Shown here piece after piece: positions 2,958-56,937 of a stretch of DNA of 64,000 nt (positions are counted from its first letter, which is position 1; every line of letters starts with the position of its first letter). Position numbers and translations under genes: made by a program. The notes beneath the pieces were generated by a model. That model was given only the letters and a program-made list of their open reading frames with translations. It was not told where the DNA came from and ran no database searches. The stretch comes from an uncultured Prevotellaceae bacterium (GTDB lineage Bacteria; Bacteroidota; Bacteroidia; Bacteroidales; Muribaculaceae), in assembly GCA_900318535.1 (NCBI GenBank), contig ONKU01000005.1, positions 62,001-126,000 of the forward strand. The letters run 5' to 3'.

Positions 2958-4724
2958 ATGATAAAGACATTGCTCAAACACGTCAAGCAGTACAAGACAG
3001 CATCATTATTGACGCCTGTTTTTATTATGCTTGAAGTAGTGCTTGACGTGCTTATTCCCTTTGTTACTGCCAAACTCATCGACAATGGCATCAATGCAGG
3101 CCACATGCCAAGCGTTTATAAATATGGCCTCATTATGGTTGTCATGGCATTCTTGAGCATGATGGCTGCCATTCTGGCCGGCAAATACGCTTCTTATGCC
3201 TCATCGGGCTTTGCCTGCAACCTGCGTGATGCCATGTACAAAAACATTCAGCGCTTTGCCTTCAGTGACATTGACAAGTACAGCACTTCTGGCCTGGTCA
3301 CCCGAATGACGACCGATGTAACCAACCTGCAAAATGCTTATCAACAGATCATTCGCACATCGGTTCGTGCTCCATTCAACCTGTTGTCCAGCATTGTGAT
3401 GTGTTTCGTCATCAGTCCTCAGTTAAGTCTCATTTTCATCATTGCCAGTGTGGTTCTCGGCATTATTCTGGCCCTGATTATCAGCAAGGTGTCTAAGATG
3501 TTCGCCTTGGTTTTCAAGCAGTATGATGTACTCAATGCTGTGGTACAGGAGAATGTGACCGGCATACGCGTTGTCAAAGCGTTCGTACGTGAAGACCACG
3601 AGAACAGCAAGTTCTGGAAAGCCGCCAAGCGCCTGTATGACCTCAACGTGAAAGCAGAGAGTCTGATGGCCCTCAATGGTCCCGTGATGAACTTGGTGGT
3701 TTATGGCTGCATCATTGCCATTTCGTGGTTCGGTGCCCAGTTTGTCGTTGGCGGTAGCTTGACGACCGGTCAGCTTACCTCTCTGTTCACCTATGTGATG
3801 ACCATCCTGATGTCACTGATGATGCTCAGCATGATTTTTGTAACCATTACTCAAAGTCTTGCTAGCGGACAGCGTGTGGCTCAGGTGATTAACGAAATTC
3901 CTGATATCGTCAATCCTGACGATGCCCTGACAGAAATTCCCGACGGAAGCATTGATTTCAACCACGTCTTTTTTGCCTATAAGGGAGGTAGTGGTGAATA
4001 TGCCCTCAACGACATAGACCTGCACATTGCCAGCGGTGAATCCATTGGCGTGATTGGCGGCACCGGTAGCGGAAAATCATCACTTATCAACCTTGTGAGC
4101 CGCCTGTACGACGCTTCAAAGGGCGAAGTGCTTATCGGAGGTAACAACGTGAATACCTATGACTTAGAGACCCTTCGCAACAATGTATCGGTAGTCTTGC
4201 AGAAGAATGTCCTCTTCTCGGGCACGATCCTCGAGAACCTGCGCTGGGGAGATGAGAATGCCTCGTTGGAGCAATGCCGTCAAGCCTGCCGCGTTGCGTG
4301 TGCCGACGAGTTCATCATGGAAATGCCTAACGGCTATGAAACCCGCATCGAGCAAGGCGGCACCAACGTCTCCGGCGGCCAAAAGCAACGATTGTGCATC
4401 GCACGCGCCCTACTGAAACGGCCCAAAGTCATGGTGCTGGACGACAGCACCAGCGCCTGTGACAACACCACCGACGCCCGCATTCGTGCAGCCTTGCGCG
4501 ATAACCTGCCCGAAATGACCAAAATCATTATTGCCCAACGCATTAGCAGCATCAAGGATTGCGATCGCATCCTTGTGCTAGACGATGGCAAGATGGCTGG
4601 ATTTGACACCCACGGCAACCTGCTGAAGTCATGTCGCATCTATCAAGAGATCTGTGCTATTCAAGAAGAGGCTGGCGGTGATTTCGACAGTCCGCAAAAT
4701 CAAAGAAAGGAGGGACAATCATGA
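2958..4724 (+). CDS. ABC exporter half-transporter with degenerate nucleotide site (subunit A)
   Basis: This 588-residue type IV ABC exporter has an N-terminal six-helix transmembrane domain (about 1-310) and a nucleotide-binding domain. Walker A is GGTGSGKSS near 366 and the signature is VSGGQ. Walker B reads VMVLDDSTSACD, so the catalytic glutamate is replaced by aspartate. The switch histidine is replaced by glutamine in IIAQRIS. Such changes mark the non-catalytic half of heterodimeric exporters. The stop overlaps the start of the next ABC gene by four bases (ATGA), as expected for translational coupling of two partner subunits. The ATG at 2958 was chosen because the promoter ends at 2927. 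The substrate (drug, lipid or peptide) cannot be read from the sequence. Confidence 0.9.
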   Translation: MIKTLLKHVKQYKTASLLTPVFIMLEVVLDVLIPFVTAKLIDNGINAGHMPSVYKYGLIMVVMAFLSMMAAILAGKYASYASSGFACNLRDAMYKNIQRFAFSDIDKYSTSGLVTRMTTDVTNLQNAYQQIIRTSVRAPFNLLSSIVMCFVISPQLSLIFIIASVVLGIILALIISKVSKMFALVFKQYDVLNAVVQENVTGIRVVKAFVREDHENSKFWKAAKRLYDLNVKAESLMALNGPVMNLVVYGCIIAISWFGAQFVVGGSLTTGQLTSLFTYVMTILMSLMMLSMIFVTITQSLASGQRVAQVINEIPDIVNPDDALTEIPDGSIDFNHVFFAYKGGSGEYALNDIDLHIASGESIGVIGGTGSGKSSLINLVSRLYDASKGEVLIGGNNVNTYDLETLRNNVSVVLQKNVLFSGTILENLRWGDENASLEQCRQACRVACADEFIMEMPNGYETRIEQGGTNVSGGQKQRLCIARALLKRPKVMVLDDSTSACDNTTDARIRAALRDNLPEMTKIIIAQRISSIKDCDRILVLDDGKMAGFDTHGNLLKSCRIYQEICAIQEEAGGDFDSPQNQRKEGQS

Positions 4725-6637
4725 GAATGCCTGGAGGACCTGGAGGCGGCGGAAACCGCCACGTTGTGGTGGACACGACCGGCGTGAACAAGAGAAGCAC
4801 CCTGTGGCGGCTTTTCAAGTTCGTGATGAAGAACTACAAGTTCTCGTTCCTGGCAGTTGCGGTGTGTATCGTTGTTACGGCGTGCACTACCCTTGCCTCT
4901 ACCCTATTCACGCGAACGCTCATCGACGACTACATCACACCGCTGATGGGTCAAGCCCAGCCCGACTACGGACCACTGGCTGTGACACTCGTCAAGCTGG
5001 GAATCGTCCTTATCTTTGGCGCTCTGTGCTCCTATCTGCATAGCCGCCTGATGATTAACGTGAGCCAGGGAACGATGCTCAAGTTGCGTAAGAGCATGTT
5101 TGAGCACATGGAGGCATTGCCCATCAAATTCTTTGACAGCAACACCCACGGCAATGTGATGTCTACCTATACGAATGATGTAGACACACTGCGCCAGATG
5201 ATTTCGGGCAGCTTGCCTCAGGCCTTTAACTCACTCATCACACTCGGAATCACCTTTGCCAGCATGATTGTGATGAGTGTGCCCATGACCATCTTATCTA
5301 TTGTTATGGCTTTGATTATGGCATGGTCAACGACCTATTTGGGCAAGCGTTCACGCAAGCATTTCCGCGTCCAGCAGCAAAAACTGGCCGAGGTAAACGG
5401 CTTCATTGAAGAGATGATGACTGGCCAAAAGGTCGTTAAGGTCTTTTGCCATGAGGATCAGGCCATTAAGCAGTTTGAGGTCATCAACGAGGAACTGCGC
5501 AGCAATACCTACGATGCCAACCGCATCAGCAACATCGTCATGCCCGTCAACGGCAACCTGGGTCACTTGAGCTATGTGCTCATGGGCGTGTTGGGCGCAG
5601 CACTCATTATCAACGGGCACACAGGCATGACACTTGGTACACTGGTGGCGTTCCTCACGCTCAACAAGAGTTTTGCGCGCCCCATTGCCAGCATCAGTCA
5701 GCAGATCAACAGTGTGCTTAATGCGTCGGTGGGCGCTGACCGCATCTTCAAGGTTCTTGATCAAACGACAGAAGTTGACGAAGGTAAAGTCAAGCTGGTG
5801 AACGCCAAACGCGGAGAGGACGGACTGCTCCACCCCACCCTCCAACACACGGGCATCTGGGCATGGAAAATCCCTACAGATACGGGCAGGACACGCTATG
5901 TCAAGGTCTCAGGCGGCGTTAAGTTCAATAATGTGGACTTTGGCTACAACGAAGACAAACAGGTGTTGTTCGACATCGATATCGACGCCATGCCTGACCA
6001 GAAAATCGCCTTTGTGGGCGGCACTGGCGCAGGCAAGACGACCATTACCAATCTGATTAACCGTTTCTATGACATTCAGGACGGCAAAATCACTATCGAC
6101 GGCATCAGCGTTAATGACATCAGCAAGCGCGACCTGCGACACAGTCTGGGTATGGTGCTGCAGGAGACACATCTGTTCACCGGCACTGTGATGGACAACA
6201 TCCGCTATGGACGTCTTGAGGCTACCGACCAGGAATGTATCGAAGCCGCCAAGCTTGTCAATGCCGACAGTTTCATCCGCCGCCTGAGCGACGGCTATCA
6301 CACTGTCCTCAATGCCGATGGCGGTAATCTGAGCCAGGGTGAGCGCCAGCTGCTTGCCATTGCCCGCGCTGCCGTTGCCGATCCTCCCGTTCTCATCCTT
6401 GACGAGGCGACCAGCAGCATCGACACGCGCACCGAGAAACTCGTTCAGTATGGAATGGACTCGCTGATGAAAGGACGTACGACATTTGTCATTGCACACC
6501 GACTGTCCACCGTGCGCAACAGCGACTGCATCATCGTTCTGGAAAAGGGACGCATCATCGAGCGCGGCACCCACGAGGAACTGCTCGCACAGCACGGCAA
6601 GTACTATCAGCTGTATACGGGCGGAGAAATCTCATAA
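4721..6637 (+). CDS. ABC exporter half-transporter with canonical ATPase site (subunit B)
   Basis: This is the 638-residue partner of the preceding gene. After a glycine-rich N-terminus (MRMPGGPGGGG), a transmembrane domain occupies roughly residues 30-340. The ATPase domain has Walker A GGTGAGKTT near 432, a canonical Walker B VLILDEATSS near 556 and switch His in VIAHRLST near 590. Its signature is the variant LSQGE, which in a heterodimer would face the degenerate Walker B of subunit A; subunit A's canonical VSGGQ would face this intact site. An insertion of about 35 residues (near 365-400, rich in G/W/T) sits between the membrane and ATPase domains. A strong terminator follows at 6657. 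Together the two genes encode one asymmetric exporter in the inner membrane. Confidence 0.9.
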   Translation: MRMPGGPGGGGNRHVVVDTTGVNKRSTLWRLFKFVMKNYKFSFLAVAVCIVVTACTTLASTLFTRTLIDDYITPLMGQAQPDYGPLAVTLVKLGIVLIFGALCSYLHSRLMINVSQGTMLKLRKSMFEHMEALPIKFFDSNTHGNVMSTYTNDVDTLRQMISGSLPQAFNSLITLGITFASMIVMSVPMTILSIVMALIMAWSTTYLGKRSRKHFRVQQQKLAEVNGFIEEMMTGQKVVKVFCHEDQAIKQFEVINEELRSNTYDANRISNIVMPVNGNLGHLSYVLMGVLGAALIINGHTGMTLGTLVAFLTLNKSFARPIASISQQINSVLNASVGADRIFKVLDQTTEVDEGKVKLVNAKRGEDGLLHPTLQHTGIWAWKIPTDTGRTRYVKVSGGVKFNNVDFGYNEDKQVLFDIDIDAMPDQKIAFVGGTGAGKTTITNLINRFYDIQDGKITIDGISVNDISKRDLRHSLGMVLQETHLFTGTVMDNIRYGRLEATDQECIEAAKLVNADSFIRRLSDGYHTVLNADGGNLSQGERQLLAIARAAVADPPVLILDEATSSIDTRTEKLVQYGMDSLMKGRTTFVIAHRLSTVRNSDCIIVLEKGRIIERGTHEELLAQHGKYYQLYTGGEIS

Positions 6638-54887: not shown

Positions 54888-54895
54888 TAATTTTG
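54888..54895 (+). promoter_or_regulatory. -7 box of the CCA-adding fusion gene
   Basis: TAATTTTG lies 19 bases before the ATG at 54915 and gives a very short leader. Confidence 0.55.
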
Positions 54896-54914: not shown

Positions 54915-56831
54915 ATGGTGATTAACCGTCAAATAATAGCCGAACATGTCAATCTGCCAGTAATGAAACTGGTGGGAAGTGTTGCCGATGAGCTGCACCG
55001 CGAGTGCTATGTCGTTGGTGGATATGTCAGGGACATTTTCCTTGAACGGCCCAGCAACGATATGGATTTTGTGACAGTGGGCAGCGGCATCGAGGTGGCT
55101 CGGGCTGTGGCTAACCGTCTGGGCAAGCGTGCCCACCTGGCTGTTTTCCGCACCTACGGCACGGCCCAGGTCAAGACCCGCCAGTGGGAACTGGAATTTG
55201 TCGGGGCACGGCGAGAGTCCTATCACCGCGAGAGCCGCAATCCCATTGTGGAGGATGGCACTCTGGACGACGACCAGAAACGCCGCGATTTCACCATTAA
55301 CGCCATGGCCATCTGCCTGAACAAGGAGCGTTATGGCGAGTTGCTTGACCCCTTTGACGGCATTGGCGACATGGAGCGCCGCATTATCCGTACTCCGCTG
55401 GATCCCGACATCACCTTCAGCGATGACCCGTTGAGGATGATGCGTGCCGTCAGGTTCGCCACACAGTTGGATTTTGACATTTATCCTGAGACTTTCGAGG
55501 CGATTCGCCGCAATGCCAAGCGCATCCGCATCATCACCCGTGAGCGCATTGCCGAGGAACTGATGAAAATCATGCGTTCGCCCCAACCGTCACGCGGATG
55601 GAAGCTGCTGGAACAGTGCGGACTGTTGCCACTCATTTTCCCCGAGTTGGCAGCGCTCAAGGGCATCGAGACCGTGAACGGCCGTGGCCATAAGGACAAT
55701 TTCATGCACACCCTGCAGGTGCTTGACAACGTGGCTGCTGTCAGTGATGACGTATGGCTCCGTTGGGCCGCACTGCTGCATGATGTGGGCAAGGCACGCA
55801 CCAAGCGCTGGGACCCGCAGCTGGGCTGGACGTTCCACAACCATAATTTCGTAGGCGAGAAAATGGTGCCCAAGATCTTTGCCAAGATGCGCCTGCCGCT
55901 CAACGAGCACATGAAATATGTGAAGAAGCTCGTTGGACTGCACATGCGCCCCATTGCACTGGTCGAGGACGAGGTGACCGACAGCGCCGTGCGCCGTCTG
56001 CTATTTGATGCGGGCGATGACATTGACGACCTGATGACGCTGTGCAAAGCCGACATAACAAGCAAGAACCAGAACAAGGTGCAGCGTTTCCGCGAAAACT
56101 TCGACCTGGTGAAGCAAAAACTGGTGGATATCGAGGAGAAAGACCGGGTGCGCAATTTCCAACCCCCTATCGATGGCGAGGAAATCATGACGACCTTTGG
56201 CCTGGAACCCTCCCGTCCAGTAGGGTATATCAAGGATGCCATCAAGGACGCCATTCTCGACGGCGTTATCACCAACGACTATGCGTCGGCCTACCGTCTC
56301 ATGCTTGATAAGGCCGCAGAACTGGGTATTTCTCCCGTTCACGCCGGCCAATTGTGCCACACGACGATACCATCTCCTGTGGGTTCACTGATTATCGCTG
56401 CCAGTGACAAGGGAATCGCCTATATCGGCTGGAACAAAGATGACATCGGCGATTTGGCCCAAAAACTGAATCTGCAGCCGATAGAAGAGCTCTCTCCCCT
56501 GCTCTCGCAGTGCATCAAGCAGTTGGGCGAGTATTTTGACGGAACCCGTCGCGAGTTCTCATTACCCTTGCATGTGACAGGCACCGACTACCAGCTCAAG
56601 GCATGGGACGAGCTGCAAAAGATTCCCTATGGCGAGACCATCAGCTATGGCGAACAGGCAACCCGCTTGGGCAATCCCAAGGGAGCACGTGCTGTTGCAC
56701 AAGCCAACCATAACAACCCTGTTGCCATCGTCGTTCCTTGCCATCGTGTGATCAATGCCGATGGCACTTTGGGAGGTTACGCCTCGGGTACTGATATCAA
56801 ACGAGAGCTCCTATCTCTAGAGAAGCACTGA
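54915..56831 (+). CDS. Fusion of CCA-adding tRNA nucleotidyltransferase (HD type) and O6-alkylguanine-DNA alkyltransferase
   Basis: This single 638-residue frame joins two enzymes. Residues about 1-475 are a CCA-adding tRNA nucleotidyltransferase: class II signature CYVVGGYVRDIFL with DMDFV acidic pair near 25-50, RRDFTINAMA near 130, DPLRMMRAVRFAT near 175, and an HD phosphohydrolase domain (HTLQVLDNV, LLHDVGKA). Residues about 485-638 are a complete MGMT/Ogt domain that repairs alkylated DNA: PYGETISYGEQA, ARAVAQANHNNP with the Arg finger, and PCHRV with acceptor Cys609. Both catalytic sets are intact. The junction near 56340 shows no stop, frameshift or repeat. Such a pairing of tRNA end maturation and DNA repair is unusual. 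Confidence 0.9.
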   Translation: MVINRQIIAEHVNLPVMKLVGSVADELHRECYVVGGYVRDIFLERPSNDMDFVTVGSGIEVARAVANRLGKRAHLAVFRTYGTAQVKTRQWELEFVGARRESYHRESRNPIVEDGTLDDDQKRRDFTINAMAICLNKERYGELLDPFDGIGDMERRIIRTPLDPDITFSDDPLRMMRAVRFATQLDFDIYPETFEAIRRNAKRIRIITRERIAEELMKIMRSPQPSRGWKLLEQCGLLPLIFPELAALKGIETVNGRGHKDNFMHTLQVLDNVAAVSDDVWLRWAALLHDVGKARTKRWDPQLGWTFHNHNFVGEKMVPKIFAKMRLPLNEHMKYVKKLVGLHMRPIALVEDEVTDSAVRRLLFDAGDDIDDLMTLCKADITSKNQNKVQRFRENFDLVKQKLVDIEEKDRVRNFQPPIDGEEIMTTFGLEPSRPVGYIKDAIKDAILDGVITNDYASAYRLMLDKAAELGISPVHAGQLCHTTIPSPVGSLIIAASDKGIAYIGWNKDDIGDLAQKLNLQPIEELSPLLSQCIKQLGEYFDGTRREFSLPLHVTGTDYQLKAWDELQKIPYGETISYGEQATRLGNPKGARAVAQANHNNPVAIVVPCHRVINADGTLGGYASGTDIKRELLSLEKH

Positions 56832-56891: not shown

Positions 56892-56937
56892 AATCAGGTC
56901 GCAACGGGGATAGCCACTGCGACCTGATTGATTTTTT
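56892..56937. terminator. Terminator of the CCA-adding fusion gene
   Basis: AATCAGGTCGCA at 56892-56903 pairs with its complement at 56918-56929, followed by GATTTTTTG. It lies between convergent genes. Confidence 0.85.

Follow-up and report, generated by a model that had tools for sequence, protein, structure and literature searches.

Class II bacterial CCA-adding enzymes, those with an HD domain being of the E. coli Cca type, consist of a PolyA_pol head, an RNA-binding domain, and an HD domain, carry the GG-V-RD, DxD, and RRD motifs, and adopt the tRNA nucleotidyltransferase fold. The protein described here shares these features but, unlike those enzymes, bears a complete alkyltransferase at its C-terminus. 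This alkyltransferase resembles the Ogt/MGMT proteins (PF02870 and PF01035; TIGR00589) in that both domains are complete and the PCHR and other active-site residues are invariant; it differs in not being a separate protein, as a few residues connect it to the tRNA enzyme that precedes it. Natural fusions of alkyltransferases with other domains exist, Ada being one of them. Others, namely AGT-EndoV of Ferroplasma, ATL-EndoV of archaea, and the histone-like AGT-2 of C. elegans, are covered in a 2023 review of alkyltransferases (PMC10779285), in the main text of which the word tRNA does not occur. The present fusion is similar to these proteins and to Ada in joining an alkyltransferase to another functional domain (an enzyme in the case of EndoV), whereas their partners act on DNA or in transcription and the partner in the present case matures tRNA. 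Each of the two domain families is well known, and the fused architecture appears to be undescribed in the literature searched, where no account of a CCA–alkyltransferase fusion was found (full-text search of non-subscription papers, judged by titles and abstract openings). A tRNA-maturation enzyme and a suicide DNA-repair protein are joined in a gene that substitutes for a stand-alone repair gene in most of the species sampled from a large genus of the rumen and gut.

The window, which is the whole 64,000-nucleotide stretch of DNA analysed here, comes from a genome of 2,924,856 bases (2.92 Mb) in 43 contigs that is 92.3% complete and presumably belongs to the genus Sodaliphilus in the Muribaculaceae. 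The genus is assigned from a locus of S. fimicaballi (L109), whose match (3487–5409) has the same end point as the hit in genus member G002 (3502–5409). The features of the locus are as follows.

54888..54895, plus strand: TAATTTTG, a Bacteroidota-type −7-like box upstream of the ATG, with TANNTTTG in relatives
54915..56831, plus strand: cca-ogt fusion gene, 638 aa, a single ATG-started frame without stop or frameshift
55005..55391, plus strand: PolyA_pol head, residues 31–159 (GGYVRD 35–40, DMD 49–51), from Pfam, with motifs conserved across 76 fusions
55470..55655, plus strand: PolyA_pol_RNAbd, residues 186–247, from Pfam
55701..55958, plus strand: HD domain, residues 263–348 (HD at 289–290), from Pfam and motif conservation
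56331..56351, plus strand: junction, residues about 473–479, between the last CCA helix (456–469) and the first alkyltransferase strand (479–487) of the AlphaFold2 model
56358..56573, plus strand: Methyltransf_1N, the N-terminal (ribonuclease-like) domain of the alkyltransferase, residues 482–553, from Pfam, in 51 of the 52 members of set A1
56589..56825, plus strand: DNA_binding_1, the catalytic domain of the alkyltransferase, residues 559–637, from Pfam, in all 52 members of set A1
56736..56750, plus strand: PCHRV active site, residues 608–612, with the acceptor Cys609; P608, C609, H610, and R611 are invariant in 76 of 76 fusions
56892..56929, no strand assigned: 16-pair inverted repeat between convergent genes, a possible terminator, placed by the scan on the minus strand only

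The sequence-only reading of one uninterrupted frame, encoding a class II tRNA nucleotidyltransferase with an HD domain followed by a complete alkyltransferase, is confirmed by the open reading frame, the motifs, and Pfam, whose curated cut-offs are exceeded by all five domains. It had also assigned the gene its own −7 box and terminator. The former holds: TAATTTTG, which we take to be of the Bacteroidota −7 type, precedes the ATG, and TANNTTTG lies within 70 nt upstream of the gene in 39 of 54 relatives, while it occurs in 2.45% of mononucleotide shuffles of the corresponding 70 nt in the window. The terminator is weakly supported; the inverted repeat is present, but it is placed on the minus strand only, and the two terminator-like sites in the region are not above chance, the shuffle mean being 2.5.

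The N-terminal part is likely to be the CCA-adding tRNA nucleotidyltransferase of its host. Among 76 fusions, GGYVRD and D49 are retained in all and D51 in 75 (one has His), R124 and D125 of the RRD motif are retained in all and R123 in 75 (one residue is unread), so that the CCA motifs, HD included, are each retained in at least 75 of 76. The CCA specificity is drawn from context, because the CCA part scores below the cut-off of every listed NCBIfam CCA-type equivalog: all of the tRNA equivalogs listed fall below their own cut-offs, the best being CCA tRNA nucleotidyltransferase, and TIGR02692 gives 360.2 bits against a cut-off of 438.8. The fusion is the only nucleotidyltransferase match in its own genome, and an encoded CCA is absent from six of the seven tRNAs found in a partial sample of that genome (302,905 of 2,924,856 bases), which suggests that the CCA half is probably essential. 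A second nucleotidyltransferase, 34–36% identical to the CCA half, is present in six of 101 genus genomes (G050, G005, G080, G059, G017, and G030), and in G059 it is the only one found.

The C-terminal part scores 109 bits against TIGR00589 (the ogt superfamily in NCBIfam), above a cut-off of 46.4. Besides the PCHR residues, Y578, R592, N601, G625, and E636 are invariant in all 76 distinct full-length fusions, including that of the window; by comparison with human MGMT, Y578, R592, N601, and E636 presumably correspond to the active-site Tyr, the arginine finger, the Asn hinge, and the Glu. The fusion is the sole PF01035 match in its own genome, and the C-terminal part is predicted to be the only O6-alkylguanine-DNA alkyltransferase of the host, which would transfer an alkyl group once to Cys609. 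The Ada Zn-binding domain is not among the Pfam matches of the fusion protein, and PF02805 has no match in the 14 genus genomes searched, the host included; hence, no induced response of the Ada type is to be expected there.

In the AlphaFold2 model, built from 52 fused sequences (mean pLDDT 89.1, pTM 0.62), a short coil with a pLDDT of about 95 joins the last CCA helix to the first alkyltransferase strand; because the pTM is only 0.62, the model does not establish the placement of the two domains relative to each other. Foldseek matches include tRNA nucleotidyltransferases and, lower down, M. tuberculosis OGT, with 40–41% identity to its chains, and E. coli Ada. The stretch from residue 472 to residue 491 is 20 residues long in 67 of 76 fusions, that is, in 67 of the 68 found outside two related genera (g23 and g28), and spans 24–32 residues in the eight fusions from those genera. 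It is conceivable that a separate internal start feeds a lone alkyltransferase product, although the codon of residue 480 is CTG in 35 and TTG in 14 of the 76 fusions, with no conserved start codon there, and ATG463, while invariant in all 76, is situated inside the last CCA helix and has a Met at the equivalent position in most of the unfused CCA proteins compared.

The fusion is widespread in the genus. Counting species that are related, and hence not independent, 77 of 101 genus genomes, the host included, contain an uninterrupted fusion (one open frame whose match begins no later than residue 8 and reaches at least residue 634), and five more (G007, G020, G024, G030, and G075) keep the junction in frame but are interrupted at another point by a contig break, a truncation, or a frameshift, which brings the in-frame junction to 82 of 101. 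CCA alone, ending near residue 477, is found in 11 genomes; in one of the remainder the match stops at a contig edge, one has a distant paralogue only, and six have no match, and the genomes with only the paralogue or no match are 62–83% complete. The PF01035 family was found in 90 of the 101 genomes; in all 82 with the junction there is no PF01035 match besides the fused copy. Eight of the 11 CCA-only genomes have a separate alkyltransferase (which in G045 amounts to no more than a short frame of 133 aa), and three have none; G008, G012, and G035, with an unfused CCA and no alkyltransferase found, are 77–87% complete and may have lost the function. In a family sample of 247 genomes from 30 genera, tallied from the matches listed, the fusion occurs in five of five g28 and four of nine g23 genomes, one of which is interrupted by the end of a contig. 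Seven of these nine fused genomes have no other alkyltransferase match, and the other two add only a DNA_binding_1 frame of 122–131 aa. When residues 380–638 served as the query, the matches listed for 393 genomes of the order and 395 of the phylum included none across the junction except the window's own. Among the named records that have the fusion are Candidatus Sodaliphilus fimicaballi, Ca. S. limicaballi, and numerous MAGs from ruminants assigned to Muribaculaceae, Prevotellaceae, or Bacteroidales.

A possible route to the fusion can be read from the neighbourhoods of relatives (neighbour names are from Pfam on one member each). In L136, an unfused cca follows RNase Y, a PSP1-domain protein, GldH, an HAD hydrolase, and an M24 peptidase, and L138, also unfused, has the same row without HAD. 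In G110 (L256), PSP1 and M24 genes belong to a similar row whose last members are cca, PTPS (QueD-like), radical SAM (QueE-like), and ogt, all on one strand. In G126 (genus g27), the rny-psp1-gldH-HAD-cca-ogt row, which is without M24, ends in cca and ogt genes that overlap by ATGA in different frames (L255, 5503–5506). The row ends in the fused gene in G127 and G165 (g28) and in G122 (g23), and the fused gene has other neighbours in G218 and G240 (g23). The overlapping pair of G126 is likely to represent the pre-fusion state and makes the route concrete, which supports the earlier suggestion that neighbouring genes had merged; because the pair groups with the fusions on neither the CCA nor the alkyltransferase tree, it illustrates this route and is not taken as the direct ancestor. 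Relatives display unfused cca, ogt further downstream, overlapping cca-ogt, the fused gene, and its later loss, which are plausible steps that make the course of this fusion legible. In Sodaliphilus, the fused gene is located elsewhere than in that row, and in the clade of the window it is divergent from rho. In another Sodaliphilus clade, the fused gene begins at the stop of nth (endonuclease III) at 12 named loci (L098, L099, L100, L101, L103, L106, L107, L110, L112, L116, L120, and L135), with a 4-nt overlap in ten, a 1-nt overlap in one, and a 4-nt gap in one; at these loci, co-translation may link base-excision repair with tRNA maturation and alkyl repair.

Between one and three fusion events would account for the trees. 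On the alkyltransferase tree, the Sodaliphilus fusions and the g23 and g28 fusions stand apart, and constraining them together is not rejected (p 0.373). The first such tree had 117 rows, of which 52 were omitted from the test tree, comprising 46 fusions for thinning and six long or outlying rows; two of the latter are the fusions L117 and L114, the second of which had been placed away from the remaining fusions. The CCA tree (LG+G4; 54 chosen rows, not all loci, with ten of the 11 CCA-only Sodaliphilus genomes included) rejects a single fused clade (p 1.5e-40), a result that fits repeated gains and one gain with losses alike. Within Sodaliphilus, CCA-only genomes occupy two places inside the fused group on this tree, and a tree that constrains the Sodaliphilus fusions to a group excluding these genomes is rejected (AU p 0.000273). 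Because the CCA-only genomes are nested in this way and the junction length is near-constant, it is more likely that the C-terminal half was lost twice or more than that it was gained repeatedly. The separate genes with a stop in close relatives that the sequence-only reading had envisaged do occur, in the CCA-only genomes, but they leave the fusion standing, as the ten placed on the tree nest inside the fused group. No ogt remnant was detected behind CCA by tblastn (E ≤0.01) over 92–1200 nt at 20 unfused loci, which amount to 19 places as L128 equals L185; the tandem gene of G126 alone matched. Six separate alkyltransferases of CCA-only species form their own distant clade, and for this reason they are not regarded as the split-off half; three others (L182–L184) are more distant still.

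With good confidence, the gene is read as encoding a genuine bifunctional protein that arose from the merger of neighbouring genes, its halves being most likely independent of each other. An ogt gene would have come to sit directly downstream of cca; the two would then have overlapped and been coupled in translation until a small indel in the overlapping stretch brought them into one frame, and the merged gene would have displaced the separate ogt across most of Sodaliphilus as well as in parts of two related genera. The CCA half would mature tRNAs, the tethered alkyltransferase would remove O6-alkylguanine damage once per molecule, and co-synthesis with a tRNA-maturation gene could ensure a constant supply of the repair protein.

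The coupling of tRNA upkeep to DNA repair under alkylation stress, as raised by the sequence-only reading, found no positive evidence here and, while possible, is unlikely. Such coupling could operate if alkylation of Cys609 destabilised the whole protein and slowed translation during repair, or if tRNA binding positioned the repair domain. Alkylated alkyltransferases are destabilised in other organisms, and a functional link would agree with the fixed length of the junction, with variable sequence, in nearly all fusions outside g23 and g28, with the confident modelling of the junction, and with the finding of no other alkyltransferase or CCA-type enzyme in the host genome. However, the domain placement is not established by the model, the related genera differ in junction length, and CCA-only Sodaliphilus genomes appear inside the fused group without any remnant; these clean apparent losses of the alkyltransferase half indicate that CCA does not need it. 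The comparison of fusion-bearing and fusion-free species within one genus provides a clean test of whether the functions are coupled or merely co-supplied. A specific form, in which the protein serves as an alkylation sensor for translation, with alkyl damage inactivating or destabilising the CCA enzyme so that tRNA maturation falls with the DNA-repair load, is slightly more doubtful; if true, it would link DNA alkylation directly to protein synthesis through one polypeptide.

It is very improbable that the alkyltransferase half has been turned to RNA, repairing O6-alkylguanine in the tRNA held by the CCA half. Its physical attachment to a tRNA-binding enzyme is the one feature of the locus that favours this role; two features count against it, namely the retention of the active-site residues and the lack of a separate DNA-repair gene where the fused copy occurs. 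Ala595, which is at least 90% conserved in set A1, presumably occupies the position of Gly131 in human MGMT, as judged by eye from a comparison with the human sequence. In the part of the review PMC10814553 that deals with human MGMT, the ribonuclease H-like N-domain is considered a feature that might favour RNA, and RNA repair is described as hindered by a 2'-hydroxyl clash at Gly131. On that account, the alanine would not relieve the clash, and an RNA-directed role is therefore disfavoured.

There is similarly scant probability that the merger was passive and is now decaying, with the CCA half alone mattering and the alkyltransferase a tolerated tail that is being lost. There have probably been at least two losses in the genus, and a protein query for the alkyltransferase domain went unmatched in 22 of 198 family genomes, so that the domain is dispensable. 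The median dN/dS (NG86, 255 close pairs with CCA identity of at least 90% and dS of 0.1–2 in both parts) is 0.149 for the alkyltransferase, about three times the 0.047 of the CCA half. However, the alkyltransferase values range from 0.056 to only 0.331, the active site is invariant throughout the 76 fusions, and none of the junction-bearing genus genomes has another PF01035 match. Both halves are under purifying selection, and the fusion is real, old, and maintained by selection in many species. An assembly or sequencing artefact masking a stop codon at the junction, a caveat of the earlier reading, has a negligible probability: almost every genome is a multi-contig draft and most of the named records are metagenome assemblies, but the same in-frame junction recurs in the 82 separate species assemblies of the genus and in eight further distinct sequences from two other genera, which rules out a hidden stop or assembly error.

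Several minor observations concern individual relatives of the bifunctional protein. An apparent N-terminal extension in G004, a 758-aa frame, was rejected as a real extension, as reading by eye shows an open upstream frame with the CCA start lying within it. The same CCA-only species encodes a longer alkyltransferase (L183, 459–1409) that is preceded, as judged by eye, by an AraC-type helix-turn-helix-like stretch, and the Ada Zn domain has no match in the G004 genome. Short DNA_binding_1 frames of 122–144 aa are present at L182 (G045), L184 (G004), G122:C7:160656, and G206:C4:3866; those at L182 and L184 seemingly lack the N-terminal domain and keep PCHRV, so that they have the look of alkyltransferase-like proteins with the acceptor Cys retained.
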